Positions 1-10,791 are shown, counted from the stretch's first letter. The stretch is 64,000 nucleotides of DNA from Methanoculleus horonobensis (GCF_001602375.1 NZ_BCNY01000015.1:248001-312000), one strand, 5' to 3'. Made by a program: numbers and translations. The notes: a model not told the origin generated them from the sequence alone.

Positions 1-1
1 G

Positions 2-169
2 TGGCTCACCCAGGAGAAGGGGTTTGCCGAGGAACTCCAGGCGTTCGTGAAGGGCGAGGAGCCGGACTTCGCCGGAAGCGTCGCGACGACGCTCGCTACA
101 TTTGCTGCATGGGAGTCGATCGATACCGGGGCGGCGCAGGAGATCGATCTCGGGCGGGTGGGGTTGTAG
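2..169 (+). CDS. C-terminal end of a Gfo/Idh/MocA-type oxidoreductase (partial)
   Basis: An open frame runs in from the left edge and stops with TAG at 167-169, giving about 55 residues. The segment EELQAFVKGEEPDFAGSV followed by ATTLATFAAWESIDTG matches the usual tail of Gfo/Idh/MocA sugar oxidoreductases, in which an 'ELxAF...G' helix is followed by 'A..ES...G..V.L'. Tails of this kind are common in the two-domain dehydrogenase/Gfo-Idh proteins of surface polysaccharide clusters, which would fit the CapK/CapA genes downstream. Family placement rests on this short tail only; the catalytic part lies outside the window. Confidence 0.5.
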   Translation, partial: WLTQEKGFAEELQAFVKGEEPDFAGSVATTLATFAAWESIDTGAAQEIDLGRVGL

Positions 170-602: not shown

Positions 603-1811
603 TTACAGAGACGAAATCCGGGTGTTCTGGATATACGCCAGCTGTTCGCTGATTCGCTCCGGGATCGTGCGGGCATCCTGCCCCATAACGGCCTCATGCC
701 ACTCCTCCCGGCACGAGCAGTCCAGTCCGTCGAACTCCGACGTATCGAAATGGGAGTTGTAGCGCTGGATCGCTTCGGTGATCTCGGTATCGCACTTCCC
801 GCAGTTCCGGGCCCAGTCGAGCGACTCGACCGAGTAGTTCCAGGGGCTGACGTAGACGTGGGCACGATCCCCGAACCGCTCCCGGCACTGCTGCAGGAGT
901 TCGACGAGCGTCCAGAGCCACGGCGGGCGGTAGAGATCGTTCTTCCAGAGTTCGTGCACGACGGTGTTCTTCTCGACCGTCGTCACCTCGAGGTCGACGG
1001 AGTCGATCCCGCGGGAGACGCAGTAGGAGATGGTCTGCAGGATATCGTCTATCGCCTCGCCTTCGGCGAGGAACGGCGGTTTCACCAGGAGAAGCGGTTT
1101 CGTCAGCACGCCCATCCCTCGCATCCTCGAATGGAAGACGTCGAAGTTGTTCGCCGAGAACCCCTTGTTGATGCAGAGGTTCATCACCTGGGCGTTTGCA
1201 GACTCGAACCCGAACGCCACCTCGAGCTGCCGCCCGTTTAAGGCTTTCTTCATCCTTGCCACGTGCTCGTCGGGGGAATAATCGATCCTCGATTCGACGA
1301 CCACCCTCTTGATGTTTTTGTAGCCGTCGATGTACGAGCAGATCTTCTCGATGGCGGCAACCGGCATCTCTCGTTCGTTAAAGATATTGCCGTCGTTGTA
1401 GATCGAGACGATCGGGTAATCCCCGAGATCGACGGCGTCCATCACGTGCTCGAACTGCGCAACGTATTCGTCCGCCGAGACCTCCCTGCCCCGGGAGGTT
1501 GCACAGTAGAATCCGCACATGGTGCACCCCCCCGTCTTCTCGACCCACTCGCACCCCGTGGAGCGAAGGAAGATGATCAGTCTTCGTATGGGCTGATCGT
1601 CGAGATGTCCGATCCGCTCCTCCCACCCGATGGGAACCGTAAAATCGAGGTCTTGTGGAGCGTTTCCATTCCGCTTGCGCAGGCCCCCGGCCAGTGCCCG
1701 GATCTCGTTTAAAATGTCATTCTCCGATGAGTGACCCGTGAAGGTCTCTGCGCTGCTACTGCTATCAGGTACGGCCCGATCTAGAATAATTATCCCCCCT
1801 GCTCCGGGCAT
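603..1811 (-). CDS. Radical SAM protein, archaeosine biosynthesis RaSEA type
   Basis: A 402-residue protein. Around residues 85-105 it has LRSTGCEWVEKTGGCTMCGF, the 'GC.W...GGC.MCG' signature of the TIGR01210 radical SAM family, whose cysteines bind the 4Fe-4S cluster. A radical SAM barrel follows (YPIVSIYNDGNIFN; VVVESRIDY; EVAFGFESAN), then a C-terminal cysteine set (NCGKCD; LDCSCREEW). RaSEA works with ArcS to turn preQ0-modified G15 of archaeal tRNA into archaeosine; that role is family knowledge. The start used is an ATG preceded by GAGGGCGC. A TATA-like CTTTAAATATG lies near 1890-1900 on this strand, giving a leader of about 60 nt. No ArcS or TGT gene is in the window. Another member of the Elp3-like radical SAM group is the main alternative. 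Confidence 0.72.
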   Translation of the reverse strand: MPGAGGIIILDRAVPDSSSSAETFTGHSSENDILNEIRALAGGLRKRNGNAPQDLDFTVPIGWEERIGHLDDQPIRRLIIFLRSTGCEWVEKTGGCTMCGFYCATSRGREVSADEYVAQFEHVMDAVDLGDYPIVSIYNDGNIFNEREMPVAAIEKICSYIDGYKNIKRVVVESRIDYSPDEHVARMKKALNGRQLEVAFGFESANAQVMNLCINKGFSANNFDVFHSRMRGMGVLTKPLLLVKPPFLAEGEAIDDILQTISYCVSRGIDSVDLEVTTVEKNTVVHELWKNDLYRPPWLWTLVELLQQCRERFGDRAHVYVSPWNYSVESLDWARNCGKCDTEITEAIQRYNSHFDTSEFDGLDCSCREEWHEAVMGQDARTIPERISEQLAYIQNTRISSL

Positions 1812-2269: not shown

Positions 2270-3697
2270 ATGATTCGTCTGGGAGAAAGGATCTGCGGCA
2301 GGGAATCGTTCACTACAAAAGCTCTCGGGCTTCTCCCGGCTTACAGCGTCTATCGAAGAACCTACGCCTTACTCCAGGAGTCCCAGAGGTGGAGCCGGGA
2401 AGAACTCGCGGCCTACCAGGCCCGGGCGCTCTCGCGCCTGCTCGACCACGCCTACGAGAATGTCCCCTACTACCGCCGGGTCTTTCGGGAGCGCGGTCTC
2501 GTCCCGGAGGACATCCAAAGCCCGGAGGATCTCGGACTCCTCCCGTTCCTGACCCGTGAAGACCTCCAGACCAACCTCCCCGACTTAAAAGCCCGGAACT
2601 ACCCCGACTCTGCGTTCGAGTACGTCACCACCGGCGGCTCCACCGGGATCCCGGTCGGCTTCTACTACGAGAAAGGCGTCTCCCGCGCCCGGGAATGGGC
2701 GTTCATGAAGACCCAGTGGGACCGCGTCGGCTACCGGTTCACCGACCGCTGCGTCGTCCTCCGGGGCTACACCATCGAGTCCGCCCGAGACGGTGTCTAC
2801 TGGAAGAAGACCCTCTGCGGCCGGTGGCTGCTGATGTCCTCCCATCACATGACCGAGGAGACGCTGCCCGCCTACATCGACCGGATCAAGAGGTTCAAAC
2901 CCCGGTTCATCCAGGGATACCCCTCCACGGCCGTGATACTCGCTCGGTATATGCGGGAGCACGGCATCGAACCGTTCCCGACCGTCAAAGCCATCCTCTG
3001 CGGGTCGGAGAACCTCTACCCCTGGCAGCGCGACCTCCTCACCGGGGTCTTCGGGTGCCGCGTCTTCTCCTGGTACGGCAACTCCGAGCAGACGGTGCTT
3101 GCCGGCGAGTGCGAGGAGAGCACCCACTACCACATCTTCCCCGAATACGGGATCGTCGAACTGATCGGCAGGAACGGACAGCCCGTCCAGGGCACAGGAG
3201 CCATGGGCGAGGTGGTCGCGACCAACCTCACCAACTTCATCTGCCCCCTCATCCGCTACCGCACCATGGATCTTGCCACGGCGGCCGGGGGGCCCTGTTC
3301 CTGCGGGCGGAGTTACCCGATACTCGAACGCGTGGAAGGAAGGGTCCAGGACTTCATCGTGACGGGCAAAGGCGAACTCCTCTCCGGGATCGCCATGAAC
3401 ATCGATACCGACGCGTTCGATAACGTTAAACAATTTCAGTTCTACCAGGAGAAGGTCGGAGAGGTCATACTGAATATCGTGAGAAAACCAGCGTTCAGCA
3501 AGCAGGACGCGGAGTACCTCTACCAGGAGGTGAGCAGGAGTTGCGGCGACGACGTTCGTATCGCCATCAGGTACGTCGACAACATACCGCTCACCGCTCG
3601 CGGCAAGTACCGCTACTTTGTTCAGGATCTGCCGATAAACTTCAGCGACCGCGAAGGGGGGATCGTCGAACATGTCTCTCCCGACCTGCTCGCCTGA
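2270..3697 (+). CDS. CapK/PaaK-like adenylate-forming enzyme, copy 1
   Basis: A 475-residue member of the phenylacetate-CoA ligase-like (CapK) branch of the ANL superfamily, which activates carboxylic acids with ATP. Seen: the nucleotide loop TTGGSTGIPVGFYYEK near residue 118, the core SWYGNSEQTVLAGECEE near residue 265, the YRTMD hinge region near residue 330, and a cysteine pair (CSCGRSYP) just after it. In capsule and lipopolysaccharide loci such proteins are thought to activate an acyl or amino-acid group for sugar decoration; the substrate here is unknown. Copy 2 follows at once and overlaps it, and copy 3 is at 8092. The central region is nearly identical at DNA level to copy 3, whereas the last 130 residues differ. 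Confidence 0.8.
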   Translation: MIRLGERICGRESFTTKALGLLPAYSVYRRTYALLQESQRWSREELAAYQARALSRLLDHAYENVPYYRRVFRERGLVPEDIQSPEDLGLLPFLTREDLQTNLPDLKARNYPDSAFEYVTTGGSTGIPVGFYYEKGVSRAREWAFMKTQWDRVGYRFTDRCVVLRGYTIESARDGVYWKKTLCGRWLLMSSHHMTEETLPAYIDRIKRFKPRFIQGYPSTAVILARYMREHGIEPFPTVKAILCGSENLYPWQRDLLTGVFGCRVFSWYGNSEQTVLAGECEESTHYHIFPEYGIVELIGRNGQPVQGTGAMGEVVATNLTNFICPLIRYRTMDLATAAGGPCSCGRSYPILERVEGRVQDFIVTGKGELLSGIAMNIDTDAFDNVKQFQFYQEKVGEVILNIVRKPAFSKQDAEYLYQEVSRSCGDDVRIAIRYVDNIPLTARGKYRYFVQDLPINFSDREGGIVEHVSPDLLA

Positions 3698-5102
3698 CCA
3701 GGGAGGTATGCATACGAAGACAGGGCTTCATCGATGGGTGTCGCGTGCAAACCCGCTCACCGTCAAAGCACTCAGTCTGGTGCCGTCTTACCACACCTAC
3801 CGGCAGATGTATGCGCTCCTCCAGCGGTCACAGTGGTGGAGCCGGGAAGAACTCGCGGCCTACCAGTCCCGGGCGCTCTCGCGCCTGCTCGACCACGCCT
3901 ACGAGAATGTCCCCTACTACCGCCGGGTCTTTCGGGAGCGCGGTCTCGTGCCCGGGGACATCCGGAGTCCTGAAGATCTCGGACTCCTCCCGTTCCTGAC
4001 CAAGGAGATCGTCCAGGCCAATCTCCCCGACCTGAAGGCCAGAAACTACCCCGAGTCCGCCTTCGAGTACGTGCGGACGTCCGGCTCAACCGGCACCCCC
4101 ATGGGGTTCTACTACGAGAAAGGTGTCTCCCGCGCCCAGGAATGGGCGTTCATGAAGACCCAGTGGGACCGCGTCGGTTACCGGTTCGGCGACCGTTGCA
4201 TCGTCCTCCGGGGGCATGTCGTGGACGCAGCGGCGAGCGGCAACTACTGGAGGCGTGCGCTCTTCGGCCGGTGGCTGATCATGTCCTCCCACCAGATGAC
4301 CGAGGAGACGCTGCCGGACTACGTCAACCGGATCCAGAGGTTCAAACCCCGGTTCATCCACGCCTACCCTTCCACGGCCGTGATACTCGCCCGGCATATG
4401 CGGGAGCACGGCATCGAGCCGTTCCCGACCGTCAAAGCCATCCTCTGCGGGTCGGAGAACCTCTACCCCTGGCAGCGCGACCTGCTTACCGAGGTCTTCG
4501 GGTGTCGCGTCTTCTCCTGGTACGGCAACTCCGAGCAGACGGTGCTTGCCGGCGAGTGCGAGGAGAGCACCCACTACCATATCTTCCCCGAGTATGGGAT
4601 CGTCGAACTGATCGGCAGGAACGGACAGCCCGTCCAGGGCACAGGAGCGATGGGCGAGGTGGTCGCGACCAGCCTCACCAACTTCGTCTGCCCCCTCATC
4701 CGCTACCGCACCATGGACGTCGCGGTTCTCGGGAAGGACTCCTGCACCTGCGGAAGACAGTATCCCTTGCTCGATAAGGTGGAGGGGAGGCTCCAGGAGT
4801 TCATCGTAACCCGGAGCGGGCACCTGATCTCCGTCACCCCCATCAACTACGAATCCGAAGCGTTCGAGAATATACGGCAGTTCCAGATGTACCAGGAGGA
4901 GGTTGGCGAGCTCATCATGAAAGTCGTCAGGAAACCGGCTTACACCGAGAAGGACACCCGGCAGCTGACCGCTGAACTCCGGTGCCAGCTCGGTGACGGG
5001 GTGAACGTCCACGTCCGGTTCGTCGACGAGATCCCCCGCACCCAGGGCGGGAAGTTCCGGTACCTCATCCAGAAACTCCCCATCTCGCTCGGCGACCTCT
5101 GA
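3672..5102 (+). CDS. CapK/PaaK-like adenylate-forming enzyme, copy 2
   Basis: A 476-residue paralogue of the preceding gene with the same signatures: TSGSTGTPMGFYYEK, SWYGNSEQTVLAGECEE, YRTMDVAV and CTCGRQYP. With the ATG at 3672 it overlaps copy 1 by 26 nt. An internal ATG at 3708 is preceded directly by GGGAGGT and gives an N-terminus closer in length to copy 1, so it is a real alternative. From about 4377 to 4690 the DNA is almost the same as copy 1 (about 2930-3240), including silent sites, while the C-terminal domain is distinct. This suggests different substrates or acceptors with a homogenised core. It converges with the leftward FemAB-like gene, 4 bp away. Confidence 0.8.
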   Translation: MSLPTCSPDQGGMHTKTGLHRWVSRANPLTVKALSLVPSYHTYRQMYALLQRSQWWSREELAAYQSRALSRLLDHAYENVPYYRRVFRERGLVPGDIRSPEDLGLLPFLTKEIVQANLPDLKARNYPESAFEYVRTSGSTGTPMGFYYEKGVSRAQEWAFMKTQWDRVGYRFGDRCIVLRGHVVDAAASGNYWRRALFGRWLIMSSHQMTEETLPDYVNRIQRFKPRFIHAYPSTAVILARHMREHGIEPFPTVKAILCGSENLYPWQRDLLTEVFGCRVFSWYGNSEQTVLAGECEESTHYHIFPEYGIVELIGRNGQPVQGTGAMGEVVATSLTNFVCPLIRYRTMDVAVLGKDSCTCGRQYPLLDKVEGRLQEFIVTRSGHLISVTPINYESEAFENIRQFQMYQEEVGELIMKVVRKPAYTEKDTRQLTAELRCQLGDGVNVHVRFVDEIPRTQGGKFRYLIQKLPISLGDL

Positions 5103-5106
5103 CTGT

Positions 5107-6165
5107 TCAGTCGATGTAGGAGACGAACCGGCGTTTCAGCCAGGGTTTATTGATGACGTTGCTGTATGCCCATTCCGCCAGCGTCCCGACAGCATCCTTC
5201 TGAAAGACCTCCATATACATGCCGAGACTCGAACAGAACTTGGATTTGAAGAAGTTTAGATCCGGTGTGTTCGCTCCGATGTTCTCCAGGTACGAGTAGC
5301 CTTCGGCCTTTGCACGCTGGATCAGGAGCCACTGGAGATACTCGTTCCCGGCATGAGCCCCTTCGAACCGCGGCGTCCCGATCCAGAGCAGGAACCGCTT
5401 GTACTCCTGCGTGGCGACGGCTCCCGTGAGGGCGCCTTCCCGGTCGTAGAGGTAATAGGCCGCGAGATTCTCCGGGTACGCCCGGAAGAGCTCCTTGAAG
5501 TAGCGCCGGCTGATCATCGGGATCTTCATCTCCGGCTGACTGAACCGCTCGGCGAGCGACGCATACAGCGCTGAAACATCGGCGCTTCGCACGAGATCCA
5601 TCCCGGCCTTCTCGGCCTTCCGGAGCTTGTTGCGAAGTTTGTAGTGAAAATCGCTCCAGATCGTCTCGGCCGGCCGCGAGATGTCGACAACGTAGGTGTA
5701 GTGAATCTTCGGGTCGTATCCGCGCCAGAGGAACTGCCTGACGTCGGTGAGGCCGGGGACGAGGGTCAGGGAGAAGTAGTGCGGCGAGATAGCATCGATC
5801 TCCGCGGAGAGATCCCCCGCGATGAGATCCATGATCTCCTCCTTCTTGCCCAGTTTCAGCGTATCGAATGACTTCGCCGGGACGAATCCCTGGTAGGGGA
5901 CGACCGCCTGCATGGGCGGCGGAGAGAAGAGCATCTTCACGCCATGTGTGCTCTTTACGTAGAGCGGAGCGAGGCAGACCAGTTCCTCCCCCTTGTAGAT
6001 CCCGTAGGGGAGGAGCCGGTAGCCTGCGTGCTCTGCGGTGATCGTTATGTAGTCCCACCTGTGGAAAAGCAAACCATACGTGCTTGCATCTACGAAAGAA
6101 TCCCACAATTCCCGGTCTTTGATGATCTCGAGCACCATAGAGCCTGCCATCCGGCGATCGGCCAT
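5107..6165 (-). CDS. FemAB/BioF2-like GNAT-fold transferase, copy 1
   Basis: A 352-residue protein with the layout of FemAB-like peptidyl/acyl transferases: an N-terminal substrate half (LLFHRWDYITITAEHAGY; LAPLYVK) and a C-terminal acetyltransferase-like half (NEYLQWLLIQRAKAEGY; YLENIGANTPDLNFFKSKF). In bacteria relatives add amino acids to peptidoglycan bridges. Methanogens of this group lack murein, so the acceptor here is probably a surface glycan or glycolipid (inference). A TATA box (AGATATAAATATCC, about 6203-6214) sits 38-50 nt before the ATG. A paralogue lies at 6602-7630 with a broken copy between. Together with the CapK genes it could form an activate-then-transfer pair. Confidence 0.72.
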   Translation of the reverse strand: MADRRMAGSMVLEIIKDRELWDSFVDASTYGLLFHRWDYITITAEHAGYRLLPYGIYKGEELVCLAPLYVKSTHGVKMLFSPPPMQAVVPYQGFVPAKSFDTLKLGKKEEIMDLIAGDLSAEIDAISPHYFSLTLVPGLTDVRQFLWRGYDPKIHYTYVVDISRPAETIWSDFHYKLRNKLRKAEKAGMDLVRSADVSALYASLAERFSQPEMKIPMISRRYFKELFRAYPENLAAYYLYDREGALTGAVATQEYKRFLLWIGTPRFEGAHAGNEYLQWLLIQRAKAEGYSYLENIGANTPDLNFFKSKFCSSLGMYMEVFQKDAVGTLAEWAYSNVINKPWLKRRFVSYID

Positions 6166-6321
6166 GCCGAACCGCGCCTGCTACTGGATACCTCAAACGG
6201 GATATTTATATCTTTCCCGGGCACTGCCGGGAGCGATGGCCTGAAGGTTTTTCGACCGGCCGGGAAGCCCCGCTGCCCCGGGAGAGCACTCTCCGGTTCG
6301 GTTGATGGAAAGGACAGACCT
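6166..6321. other. Promoter of the FemAB-like gene and non-coding spacer
   Basis: This spacer carries the leftward TATA box GATATAAATATCC (about 6203-6214) and otherwise GC-rich sequence without an open frame I can support. The pseudogene remnant at 6322-6483 and about 120 bp of unassigned sequence (6484-6601) complete the gap between the two FemAB-like genes. Confidence 0.45.
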
Positions 6322-6483
6322 CTTCTCGATCAGCGGTGCAAGGCCGATCGTATACGGGTAGTCAGTCGCGATCCGGTAGCCATCCCGGGTGAACCGGCGG
6401 ATATCGTGAAAGCCCGGGACGAGCGTCATCGAGAGATAGTTCGGCGCGAGACCCCGGATCGCCTTCCCGGAGCCCGTCGACAA
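6322..6483 (-). pseudogene. Remnant of a third FemAB-like transferase gene
   Basis: About 54 codons keep clear similarity to the middle of both neighbouring transferases: APNYLSMTLVPGFHDIRRFT here, against SPNYLSIAFVPGFDDIRHYL in the 7630 gene and SPHYFSLTLVPGLTDVRQFL in the 6165 gene, followed by a YPYTIGLAPLIEK-type segment. The frame then runs into unrelated sequence, and the flanking N- and C-terminal parts are missing. It is a deletion remnant between two intact paralogues, evidence that the family once had three members here. Confidence 0.65.
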
Positions 6484-6601
6484 CCGCCTGCAGAAGAGGG
6501 ACAGACCGCGAGCAGTTCTCCACCCCTGGAAATGCCGCAGGGAAGAAACGTATCCCCGGTATGCTGCCCTGTGCCGTGAGGCACCGGGACGGCGGTAAAC
6601 C

Positions 6602-7630
6602 CTAAACCCTGCCGGTCGCCATCATCAACCGTTTCACAAAGGAGCGATATGCCCACTCGGAGAACGCACCGAGGCCGTCTTTCTTCTCGACCTCAAAGTA
6701 CATCGTGAGATCGGGGTTGAACTTCGATTTGAAGAAGGCCAGATCGGGGTTGTTCGCACCCATATTCTCGAACGTCCGGTAGCCCTCGGCACGTGCACGC
6801 TCTATCAGGAGCCACTGGAGATACTCGTTCCCCGCGTGAGCGTTCTCAAGCCTCGGCGTCCCGATCCAGAGCAGGAACCGCTTGTACTCCTGGGCGGCCA
6901 CCACGGCCGCGACCTCGTCCTCCGCATCGTAAAGGGTGTAGATCCCGATCCGGTCCGGATAGGCACGCACGAGATCTTCGAGGTAGTCGTGCTTGATCGG
7001 CGGGATGTCGAGCGACGGGTCACGGAAACGCTCGGAGATGAGCGCATAAAGCGTGGAGATATCGCCGGACCTCTCCAGCCGGAGACCCGCTTTCGACTCC
7101 TTCTTCAGTTTGTTGCGGAGTTTATAGTGGAGGTTGTTCCAGATCTCCTCGAGTGGCCGCTCCAGGTCGATGGTGTAGGTGTACCTGACCCGTGCATCGC
7201 ACCGGTCCCAGAGGTAGTGGCGTATATCGTCGAATCCCGGGACAAAAGCGATCGAGAGGTAGTTCGGCGATATCTCCTGGAGTTCCCGGCGAACCTCACC
7301 TGCGATCAGCGCGAGAAGGGATTCTTTCTTGCTCCGTTTGAGCGATCCGAACTTCCCGCTCATCACGCACCCGAGGTGGGGGATCACCGTGAGGGGCGGG
7401 GGTGAGAAGACGGCGTTGATCCCATGCATCCGCTTCCAGAAGAGTGGGAATACGCAGAGCGGTTCGTCGCCGTGATAGATCGCGTACGGAAGAAGCGTGC
7501 TATTCGTATGATTTGCCGTCAGGTGCAGGTAGTCCCACCTGTGAAAGAGAAGGCCCGATGGGCTCTCGTCGATGAAGGTATCCCATGTATCTCTGTCCTC
7601 GACCCTGATCGCTGTCATCCCTTCCGTCAC
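6602..7630 (-). CDS. FemAB/BioF2-like GNAT-fold transferase, copy 2
   Basis: A 342-residue paralogue of the 5107-6165 gene with the same landmarks: LLFHRWDYLHLTANHTN, PPPLTVIPHLG, NYLSIAFVPGFDDIRHYLWD, LHYKLRNKLKKE and NEYLQWLLIERARAEGY. The start given is GTG. An ATG four codons later (7618) follows GGAAGGG directly and is equally possible. A TATA box, GGTTTATATGAG, lies near 7684-7693. Presumed role: transfer of an activated amino acid or acyl group to an envelope polymer. The leftward orientation against the rightward CapK genes means the block is at least two transcripts. Confidence 0.72.
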   Translation of the reverse strand: MTEGMTAIRVEDRDTWDTFIDESPSGLLFHRWDYLHLTANHTNSTLLPYAIYHGDEPLCVFPLFWKRMHGINAVFSPPPLTVIPHLGCVMSGKFGSLKRSKKESLLALIAGEVRRELQEISPNYLSIAFVPGFDDIRHYLWDRCDARVRYTYTIDLERPLEEIWNNLHYKLRNKLKKESKAGLRLERSGDISTLYALISERFRDPSLDIPPIKHDYLEDLVRAYPDRIGIYTLYDAEDEVAAVVAAQEYKRFLLWIGTPRLENAHAGNEYLQWLLIERARAEGYRTFENMGANNPDLAFFKSKFNPDLTMYFEVEKKDGLGAFSEWAYRSFVKRLMMATGRV

Positions 7631-7790
7631 TCCGGTGCTGTCATGCAGTCTGCGGCTCGGTGACCTCTAATCATCTCCCGGACTCATATAAACCTTTCCA
7701 AGGCTCTGCCGGATCGCGCAGCCGGTTGCCGCGAGGCCGGGCACAGCAACCCCGCCCGGTCGGCGAGCCCGGCCTCGCAGGCAGGAATCA

Positions 7791-7798
7791 TTATATAC
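7791..7798 (+). promoter_or_regulatory. TATA box of the small ORF at 7820
   Basis: TTATATAC is centred about 25 nt before the ATG at 7820, the normal archaeal TATA-to-start distance. GAGGTAGGGG (about 7809-7818) lies between TATA and ATG and could pair with 16S rRNA if the transcript starts a little upstream. Confidence 0.45.
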
Positions 7799-7819
7799 CG
7801 GAGCACGTGAGGTAGGGGC

Positions 7820-8011
7820 ATGGTCGCACTCCGCCTCCTCGCCATGGACGATGTTTCGTTCCGCTCGTGGGAAGGCAACGGTTCCGATGCATACGGCGAC
7901 ATCTGGGTGCTCATCCCGGAAAACAGCCTTTTTCCGGAGTTCCTGAAGCATTTTTCTCGTGCATCCGGCCGGGATCTGATCTCAATACCCTACTCTGAGA
8001 ACTTCTTCTGA
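7820..8011 (+). CDS. Small protein of unknown function (63 aa)
   Basis: A 63-codon frame starting MVALRLLAMDDVSFRSWEG and ending SIPYSENFF. It is acidic and aromatic-rich, with no membrane segment or cysteine motif. The support is its promoter: TTATATAC at 7791-7798 and a purine-rich GAGGTAGGGG just before the ATG. It lies alone between the leftward FemAB-like gene and the third CapK-like gene. I do not recognise a family. A spurious frame cannot be excluded. Confidence 0.4.
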   Translation: MVALRLLAMDDVSFRSWEGNGSDAYGDIWVLIPENSLFPEFLKHFSRASGRDLISIPYSENFF

Positions 8012-8091
8012 ACGCTCCCGGTCTCCGGGCATGCCGGTCGCCTTCACCGTGCTGCCGGTGTGATCCAACCGTACCGGGAGCAAAACGTTTA

Positions 8092-9525
8092 ATGCCGAGT
8101 ATAGATATGAGCACTTCGATGGGTGTGCGGATGAACTATCGGGGGTTGCGGCCTCTCCGGCTTGAAAATTCTGTGACGGCGAGGGCACTCCGGATCCTCC
8201 CCGCATACTCTGCATACATAAAGACCTACACCCTCCTCCGGGAGTCCCGGAGATGGAGCCGGGAAGAACACGCGGCCCACCAGGCCCGGGCGCTCTCGCG
8301 CCTGCTCGACCACGCCTACGAGAACGTTCCCTATTACCGCCGGGTCTTTCAGGAGCGCGGTCTCGTCCCGGAGGACATCCAAAGCCCGGATGATCTCGGA
8401 CTCCTCCCGTTCCTGACCCGTGAAGACCTCCAGACCAACCTCCCCGACTTAAAAGCCCGGAACTACCCCGACTCTGCGTTCGAGTACGTCACTACCGGCG
8501 GCTCCACCGGGATCCCGGTCGGCTTCTACTACGAGAAAGGCGTCTCCCGCGCCCGGGAATGGGCGTTCATGAAGACCCAGTGGGACCGCGTCGGCTACCG
8601 GTTCACCGACCGCTGCGTCGTCCTCCGGGGCTACACCATCGAGTCCGCCCGAGACGGTGTCTACTGGAAGAAGACCCTCTGCGGCCGGTGGCTGCTGATG
8701 TCCTCCCACCACATGACCGAGGAGACGCTGCCCGCCTACATCGACCGGATCAAGAGGTTCAAACCCCGGTTCATCCAGGCGTACCCCTCGGTGGCGACGA
8801 TACTCGCCCGCTACATGCGGGAGCACGGCATCGAGCCGTTCCCGACCGTCAAAGCCATCCTCTGCGGGTCGGAGAACCTCTACCCCTGGCAGCGCGACCT
8901 GCTTACCGAGGTCTTCGGCTGCCGCGTCTTCTCCTGGTACGGCAACTCCGAGCAGACAGTGCTTGCCGGCGAGTGCGAGGAGAGCACCCACTACCACATC
9001 TTCCCCGAATACGGGATCGTCGAACTGATCGGGCGGAACGGACAGCCCGTCCAGGACCCGGGAGCCATGGGGGAGGTGGTCACGACCAGCCTCATAAACC
9101 CCATCTGCCCCCTCATCCGCTACCGCACCATGGACGTCGCGGTTCGCGGGACGGACTCCTGCACCTGCGACCGTGCCTACCCGCTCCTCGAGCGGGTCGA
9201 GGGGAGGCTCCAGGAGTTCATCGTGACGAAGAACCGCCGGTTCATATCGATGACCGCGGTGAACATGCACTCCGACATCTTCGACAACGTTGCACAGTTC
9301 CAGTTCCACCAGGAGAAGGAAGGCGAGGCCCTGCTTCGAATCGTGAAAAAAACCGGATACGGCGACCGCGACACGGAACGCATTCTCCGGGAGCTCGACA
9401 GAAAATTCGACGGCGACGTGGATGTGACCATCCGCTTCGTCGATGAGATTCCCCGCACCCAGCGCGGTAAATACCAGTTCTTGACACAGGAACTCCCGCT
9501 GGATCAGTGGGGCATTTCGGTGTGA
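8092..9525 (+). CDS. CapK/PaaK-like adenylate-forming enzyme, copy 3
   Basis: A 477-residue paralogue of the 2270 and 3672 genes, with TTGGSTGIPVGFYYEK, SWYGNSEQTVLAGECEE, YRTMDVAV and CTCDRAYP. About 8400-8775 differs from copy 1 (about 2540-2915) by only a few bases, silent sites included, whereas the C-terminal 130 residues (FISMTAVNMHSDIFDNVAQF onward) have diverged. Possible starts are ATG 8092, 8107 and 8128; the last gives an N-terminus of similar length to copy 1. The stop is 5 nt before the CapA-like gene, so the two are probably co-transcribed and act in the same envelope pathway. Confidence 0.8.
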   Translation: MPSIDMSTSMGVRMNYRGLRPLRLENSVTARALRILPAYSAYIKTYTLLRESRRWSREEHAAHQARALSRLLDHAYENVPYYRRVFQERGLVPEDIQSPDDLGLLPFLTREDLQTNLPDLKARNYPDSAFEYVTTGGSTGIPVGFYYEKGVSRAREWAFMKTQWDRVGYRFTDRCVVLRGYTIESARDGVYWKKTLCGRWLLMSSHHMTEETLPAYIDRIKRFKPRFIQAYPSVATILARYMREHGIEPFPTVKAILCGSENLYPWQRDLLTEVFGCRVFSWYGNSEQTVLAGECEESTHYHIFPEYGIVELIGRNGQPVQDPGAMGEVVTTSLINPICPLIRYRTMDVAVRGTDSCTCDRAYPLLERVEGRLQEFIVTKNRRFISMTAVNMHSDIFDNVAQFQFHQEKEGEALLRIVKKTGYGDRDTERILRELDRKFDGDVDVTIRFVDEIPRTQRGKYQFLTQELPLDQWGISV

Positions 9526-9530
9526 GAACC

Positions 9531-10640
9531 ATGCAAAAACTCAGGCTAATTGCAGTAGGAGACATATGGGTTCGGACGGCGAACCATCGATACCCGTTCG
9601 GGGAGGTCGGCCATCTTCTCGAGGGCAAGGACGTCCTCTTCGGGAACCTGGAGACCACCCTCTCGGATACGGGCGAGCCGGCAGAGAAGCACCACGTGAT
9701 CTTCACATGTCCGGATGCGGCCCGGTACCTGAAGGAGGCGGGGTTCGACGTCATGAGCGTTGCAAACAACCACTCCGGCGACCTCGGGCCCCAGGGGTTC
9801 AAGAACACCCTGAGCGCACTCGAACGACGGGGGATTCTCGCCGTCGGCGGATCGGCGACCGAAGACCGGCAGGGGCCGGTCATCCTCGAGAGGAACGGCG
9901 TCTCGATCGGGTTTGCGGGCTATACGATCGGCAAACTCGCCATCTCGCGCGAGGTCTCGGTCAACCGGCTGGTCGAGGAGGATGTCCTCAAGGATATCGC
10001 CTCCCTCAAAGGCCGGTGCGACCATATCGCCGTCTCGCTGCACTGGGGAACGGAGATGGCCTACTACCCGTCTCCCGAGCAGATCGACCTCGCGCACCGG
10101 TTCATCGATGCAGGGGCCACCCTGATCCTCGGGCACCACCCCCATACCATGCAGGCGATCGAACGCTACCACGGCGGGCTCATCGCCTACTCGCTCGGCA
10201 TGTTCCAGTTCGAGCCGCGCTGGCCCCACAACATCTCGCGGGAGGCGATCATGCTCTCGGTCGACCTGCAGAAGAACGGCGTCGTCGGGGCGCATGAGAC
10301 GGTGCCGCTCATCATCGACGACGATTACATACCCCGTCCGGCGGAAGGGGCGATGGCCGAGGAGATCCAGAACTTCCTATCCGAGATCTCGCGGCCGGTC
10401 GCCGAGGGGAGGCTCACCAGGAGCAGGTGGTTTGAGGAGATCGCGCCGGTCTACATGAAGATGAACCTCGAGAGTTACCGCTACCGGATACGCCGCAAAG
10501 GCCTCTTCCCGCTCCTGGAGATGGGGGCCTGGTTCTTCACGCCGTTCTGCCTGAAATGCTGCGCCGGCCTCGTCCGGCGGTTATTTCGCCCGGAACTTGC
10601 GCGCAGGAGGCGCGCCCCGGGACAGAACGCCGGGAACTGA
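9531..10640 (+). CDS. CapA-like metallophosphatase-fold protein (poly-glutamate/capsule type)
   Basis: About 369 residues with all landmarks of the CapA family: VGDIWVRT at the N-terminus, FGNLETTLSD, VANNHSGDLGPQGF near residue 78, VSLHWGTEMAYYP and LGHHPHTMQAIE. The C-terminus is basic and hydrophobic (LEMGAWFFTPFCLKCCAGLV) and could associate with the membrane. In Bacillus, CapA takes part in making or exporting poly-gamma-glutamate; elsewhere the family accompanies diverse surface polymers. I chose the ATG at 9531, five bases after the CapK copy 3 stop; a GTG at 9507 is possible. No CapB or CapC ligase is in the window, so a true poly-glutamate pathway is not shown. Confidence 0.82.
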   Translation: MQKLRLIAVGDIWVRTANHRYPFGEVGHLLEGKDVLFGNLETTLSDTGEPAEKHHVIFTCPDAARYLKEAGFDVMSVANNHSGDLGPQGFKNTLSALERRGILAVGGSATEDRQGPVILERNGVSIGFAGYTIGKLAISREVSVNRLVEEDVLKDIASLKGRCDHIAVSLHWGTEMAYYPSPEQIDLAHRFIDAGATLILGHHPHTMQAIERYHGGLIAYSLGMFQFEPRWPHNISREAIMLSVDLQKNGVVGAHETVPLIIDDDYIPRPAEGAMAEEIQNFLSEISRPVAEGRLTRSRWFEEIAPVYMKMNLESYRYRIRRKGLFPLLEMGAWFFTPFCLKCCAGLVRRLFRPELARRRRAPGQNAGN

Positions 10641-10668
10641 GCGAAGGTGAATACGGGGGCGCAGAGGA

Positions 10669-10685
10669 GTCCGGTTTAACCGGAC
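10669..10685. terminator. Perfect palindrome downstream of the CapA-like gene
   Basis: GTCCGGTTTAACCGGAC is a perfect 17-bp palindrome 29 nt after the CapA-like stop, followed at about 10697 by GGCCTTTTCTTC. It may end the CapK-CapA transcript. A protein-binding operator for the oxidoreductase operon downstream is the alternative. Confidence 0.35.
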
Positions 10686-10791
10686 ACCGCCCCGGGCCTT
10701 TTCTTCACCGCATCCCTCATTGCAGCCGGCCGTTTCCGGGGAAGACCATCGGGCGCCCGGCGCCCGGATCGCAAAACCCTCATTACAATTG

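Follow-up and report, generated by a model that had tools for sequence, protein, structure and literature searches.

The CapK-FemAB-CapA block of Methanoculleus horonobensis (positions 2270-10640) makes up the 3' half of an island of ~19.2 kb bounded by truA and porB. The probable role of the island is the synthesis and chemical decoration of a sugar polymer at the cell surface. We regard the block as the decorating half of this surface-glycan island, and give the model as a whole a probability of about 0.6. New are a RaSEA paralogue as an island gene, the homogenisation of the CapK cores alongside distinct tails, and a tRNA-type model for FemAB3. The window, i.e. the whole 64,000-nucleotide stretch analysed, is G000:C15:248001-312000, and window coordinates count from 248001. 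Computed directly, the island spans G000:C15:239456-258640, between the end of truA at C15:239455 and the end of the CapA gene at 258640. Its features in the window are as follows.

1..169, plus strand: 3' end of BiDomOx (ADH + GFO/IDH/MocA; ORF L074:17607-19769, equal to C15:246007-248169)
603..1811, minus strand: RaSEA-like radical SAM enzyme, island-specific paralogue (TIGR01210 235 bits, cut-off 212)
2270..3697, plus strand: CapK1, predicted adenylate-forming PaaK-like enzyme
3708..5102, plus strand: CapK2, predicted adenylate-forming PaaK-like enzyme (alternative ATG start at 3672)
5107..6165, minus strand: FemAB1, FemX-like tandem GNAT transferase
~6325..6600, minus strand: FemAB2, decayed by a frameshift and 3' truncation (intact in six related species)
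6602..7630, minus strand: FemAB3, FemX-like tandem GNAT transferase
8092..9525, plus strand: CapK3, predicted adenylate-forming PaaK-like enzyme (19-nt overlap with CapA)
9507..10640, plus strand: CapA-like (PGA_cap) protein, domain from residue 18
10641..10790, no strand: right boundary of the island, ahead of porB (in G004 and G010 the junction meets truA directly)

Open reading frames and family matches agree with the earlier note on three intact CapK-like genes, two FemAB-like genes, one FemAB remnant and a CapA-like gene. The oxidoreductase tail seen at the left edge is equally real and belongs to BiDomOx, the final gene of the island's left half. The suspected leftward extension of the cluster exists just beyond the window (L074), where GT2, WecB (Epimerase_2), WecC (UDP-sugar dehydrogenase), GT4, a 402-aa alpha-toroid protein and BiDomOx (ADH+GFO/IDH) are found. 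These glycosyltransferases and nucleotide-sugar genes may be the partners elsewhere that the earlier note allowed for. The glycan genes of the left half, the homologous archaeal operons and the bacterial counterpart also support the suggestion of a surface-polymer locus. Of the genes looked for to the left, glycosyltransferases were thus found, but neither a flippase next to the block nor a heparinase among the island genes was recognised, where the toroid protein, of different sequence, occupies a comparable place. The toroid protein has no Pfam match, and its model resembles alpha-toroid enzymes (terpene cyclases, sugar epimerases and glycoside hydrolases) at TM 0.5-0.6. The absence of any recognised flippase, polymerase or export gene among the island genes counts against the surface-glycan model. 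The earlier reading overlooked that the radical SAM gene at 603-1811 is an island member and that the island ends at porB. Elsewhere in the genome, a second polysaccharide locus (L076, G000:C14:107001-127000) carries several glycosyltransferases together with a CapA paralogue of 50% identity, a FemAB of divergent sequence, RmlA/RmlB-like genes and a membrane protein resembling a flippase, with part of the L076 gene calls made by eye. A lone FemAB paralogue, ~50% identical, lies outside any obvious polysaccharide cluster (L075:9641-10669, G000:C13:174441-175469).

Co-inheritance of the island genes was likewise computed directly. With the toroid gene as marker, 20 of 22 sampled members of the genus carry the island. 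In the other two, G004 and G010, truA and porB are 74 bp and 73 bp apart, respectively, and no match to a block-type CapK, FemAB, CapA or toroid protein was found at the thresholds used. Across a 120-genome sample of the order, the toroid protein occurs in 25 genomes, 24 of which have a block-type CapK (>=42%, i.e. at least 42% identity), some of these matches being contig-end fragments. The exception is G104, in which the contig stops 0.8 kb beyond BiDomOx. The remaining genomes of this sample have no CapK above ~33% identity. Presence and absence are phylogenetically structured, hence these counts are not independent, and in several drafts contigs break at the CapK repeats, concealing parts of the block. 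Island gene content and order are shared between members of the genus, and the island genes have a dN/dS of 0.10-0.31 (pairwise Nei-Gojobori, three species pairs), which indicates that the island is not a chance assemblage. In related Methanomicrobiaceae of other genera (L112, L141) the island likewise adjoins truA, and a loss in G004 and G010 is therefore more likely than a recent gain by the others. A mobile element was considered and rejected: no tRNA was found in the window, the GC content is 60.6-62.4% in the island against 62.8-64.1% in the flanks, and truA-adjacent islands occur in related genera.

The recurrence expected of a genuine association extends from the genus to other archaeal families. 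A contiguous core operon is found at L093 and L140 (both with WecB/WecC), L094, L137 and L138. GT2-WecB-WecC-GT4-toroid-BiDomOx-CapK are contiguous in G036, G037 and G393, with CapA also in G036, while G333 and G414 carry contiguous GT2-GT4-toroid-BiDomOx-CapK-CapA, with WecB ~2 kb off in G414 (L138). Shorter forms are GT2-GT4-toroid-CapK in G330, where the other strand carries WecB and WecC some 5.5-8 kb further downstream. G236 and G310 have GT2-GT4-toroid-BiDomOx but lack CapK. The operon stretches read in all these genomes showed no FemAB. The toroid protein is a good single-copy marker for the archaeal operon (L137, L138, L093, L094, L140), and occurs also in a Thermococcus MAG (L113).

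The CapK proteins fall within the PaaK-like adenylate-forming (ANL) family. They are similar to solved PaaK-like ligases (PDB 4r1l at 1e-50, 2y4o at 3e-42), and the compared CapKs keep the ANL motifs A3 GSTG, YG, the ribose-binding D348, the hinge R372 and the catalytic K460. Among six species, the core (aa 61-345) is 95-98% identical between K1 and K3 within five of six genomes, compared to 79-92% between orthologues of different genomes. The C-terminal domain (375-470) behaves in the opposite manner, with 58-65% identity between paralogues and 77-95% between orthologues. In trees of these species the core clusters by genome, most clearly K1 with K3, and the C-terminus clusters by copy. We observe here a domain-limited gene conversion, which has homogenised the cores within each genome and preserved three distinct tails. 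Several draft contigs end within the CapK repeats. The complete single-contig genomes G092 and G040 show the same pattern, hence the homogenisation is not an artefact of draft assembly. We infer that all three CapKs use the same acid and serve different acceptors.

The FemAB proteins match the Acetyltransf_6 and PEP-CTERM FemAB models. The remnant reported at FemAB2 is a genuine frameshifted and truncated gene, with an intact orthologue at the matching position in G034, G016, G028, G040, G084 and G063. The computed FemAB3 model (pLDDT 87.3) has a FemX-like fold, with FemX, Sbb17/Sba18, FemA and MprF as top PDB neighbours, all of which we take to be aminoacyl-tRNA users; tandem acyl-CoA GNATs stand further down the list. 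The FK of the FemAB3 motif FKSKF aligns with FemX VFK, a pair with a catalytic role in FemX. A tandem GNAT fold near FemX/FemA together with the FK motif places these proteins among the FemABX family, at a sequence identity to FemX of only ~15%. The FemAB3 model is that of a transferase dependent on aminoacyl-tRNA, and by analogy the FemAB donor is most likely aminoacyl-tRNA. Species have between one and three FemABs, yet most keep three CapKs, which makes the coupling between CapK and FemAB loose. This looseness counts against the surface-glycan model, as do the low identity of FemAB to FemX and the acyl-CoA GNATs further down the fold list. A one-to-one pairing of CapK and FemAB was rejected on these varying counts.

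The radical SAM gene at 603-1811 is a second, divergent RaSEA paralogue. The canonical RaSEA lies at C13:282138, is about 29-32% identical to the island paralogue and scores 319 bits against the family, compared to 223-235 bits for the island copy. Both copies are present in all six island-bearing genomes checked. Only the canonical copy is found in the islandless G004 and G010, as well as in G036 and G037, where the operon lacks FemAB. The RaSEA-like gene is an island gene because it is found with the island and missing where the island is missing, and its absence from G036 and G037 indicates that it goes with the version of the locus that has FemAB. An unrelated bystander was rejected on this co-occurrence and on the empty truA-porB site. 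In the island copy the Cys motif is conserved, as are several blocks of the active site. Annotation of 603-1811 by models only would yield an archaeosine tRNA enzyme. RaSEA converts the lysine adduct that ArcS makes (PMC11298593), and one might speculate that the island enzyme plays a parallel role. It would be a long shot that FemAB attaches an amino acid to a uronic-acid sugar and RaSEA-like radical cleavage then strips off most of that amino acid, so that an amide or amidine stays behind. Such archaeosine-like chemistry on a polysaccharide, if true, would mean that glycans can be amidated by a so far unknown route.

The earlier note joined CapK activation and FemAB transfer into a single scheme. 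In such a relay, CapKs would activate an acid as an AMP ester or CoA thioester, and FemABs of an acyl-CoA type would transfer the same acyl group to the glycan. CapK and FemAB do occur together here and in distant clusters of other families with GT/deacetylase genes (L095, L096), and tandem GNATs that work with acyl-CoA turn up further out in the list of FemAB3 fold matches. However, the homologous operons of G036, G037, G333, G414 and G393 have CapK and no FemAB in the stretch read, and the proteins closest to FemAB in fold and in sequence use aminoacyl-tRNA, which needs no CapK. Taken together, these observations argue against a simple relay, which we consider improbable. Far less probable still is that the CapKs are ordinary aryl-CoA ligases supplying the neighbouring 2-oxoacid:ferredoxin oxidoreductase porBACD, despite their PaaK-like fold family and the adjacency of porBACD. 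The CapKs are not true PaaK (96-115 bits against NCBIfam PaaK equivalog cut-offs of 646-700), the genome has further PaaK-like genes on C14 and C15 (24-29% identity), and G004 and G010 keep porBACD beside truA without CapK. Aryl-acid catabolism with por was rejected, as the empty truA-porB site puts por outside the unit.

The island product could instead be a protein-linked glycan, on the S-layer or archaellin, decorated by CapK and FemAB, rather than a free polysaccharide. The lack of a recognised polymerase or export gene would fit such a product. Methanococcus N-glycans contain uronic-acid sugars bearing amino acids such as threonine. The gene content fits bacterial Wzx/Wzy-type capsule loci, though, and the resident species also has other glycosyltransferase loci, leaving a protein-linked glycan unlikely, if worth serious consideration. 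A poly-gamma-glutamate capsule, in turn, is suggested by the PGA_cap match of CapA (1e-59, 202 bits against a gathering score of 27). The PDB relatives of CapA include 8gq9, annotated as a poly-gamma-glutamate synthesis protein. The capsule idea is largely refuted and retains almost no probability: no Mur_ligase_M was found in the genome while control genomes were positive, hence no CapB/PgsB-type ligase was found, and CapA shows no obvious membrane anchor at its N-terminus.

For the favoured surface-glycan island, we infer all substrates and products, the order of steps and the surface location. WecB and WecC would produce UDP-ManNAcA, and the glycosyltransferases, together with the toroid protein and BiDomOx, would assemble a uronic-acid-containing glycan. 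The three CapKs might turn one carboxylic acid, presumed to be shared given the homogenised core, into an acyl-adenylate, and their three distinct C-terminal domains might pass the acyl group to glycan acceptors. Independently, the FemABs would attach amino-acid residues, for which aminoacyl-tRNA is the most likely donor. The RaSEA-like enzyme could then modify the glycan or an aminoacyl group on it.

Boundaries and gene content are now fixed for a surface-glycan island of Methanoculleus, a methanogen genus common in biogas, and the island is linked to a counterpart in bacteria as well as to operons of further archaeal families. The analysis also exposes a RaSEA paralogue that model-based naming would file under tRNA enzymes. 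Genes for some archaeal surface polymers are still unknown, such as those for methanochondroitin (PMC12369344), and it is therefore useful to have an archaeal glycan locus that is open to testing and that some relatives naturally lack.

The pathway had been proposed as undescribed, which holds only in part: its kind is known from bacterial WecB-WecC-CapK-BiDomOx-heparinase clusters, and the archaeal version has added genes. Literature searches gave nothing direct on the CapK, heparinase and WecB combination or on a Methanoculleus polysaccharide. Plasmid pl3 of Sphingobium sp. AntQ-1 carries wecB-wecC-hypothetical-CapK-BiDomOx-heparinase II/III-GT4-sugar transferase and, like the island, has WecB, WecC, GT4, BiDomOx and CapK adjacent. 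Parabacteroides distasonis plasmid 78 has a comparable polysaccharide cluster without CapK, and on Parabacteroides and Streptomyces plasmids BiDomOx adjoins an alginate-lyase-family gene. The archaeal island co-localises WecB, WecC, GT4, BiDomOx and CapK as well, and where the bacterial clusters have heparinase II/III or alginate lyase, the archaea have the ~400-aa alpha-toroid protein. The island further differs by its extra FemABs, CapA and RaSEA-like enzyme, and by missing recognised export genes. The psc1 polysaccharide cluster of Rubrivivax gelatinosus unites UDP-GlcNAc 2-epimerase, FemAB and CapK, and a biofilm screen recovered transposon hits in capK (PMC3684757). Unlike the island, psc1 is PEP-CTERM-type with export genes and a single CapK, and neither a radical SAM gene nor a toroid protein was reported (PMC3684757). 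FemX, FemA and Sbb17/Sba18 of the FemABX family share with FemAB3 the tandem GNAT fold and the FK position and are among its top structural matches, but are distant in sequence, and murein cannot be the acceptor here. Finally, the island radical SAM enzyme passes the TIGR01210 cut-off as RaSEA does and retains its motifs, yet differs from RaSEA in being a second, lower-scoring copy confined to island carriers.
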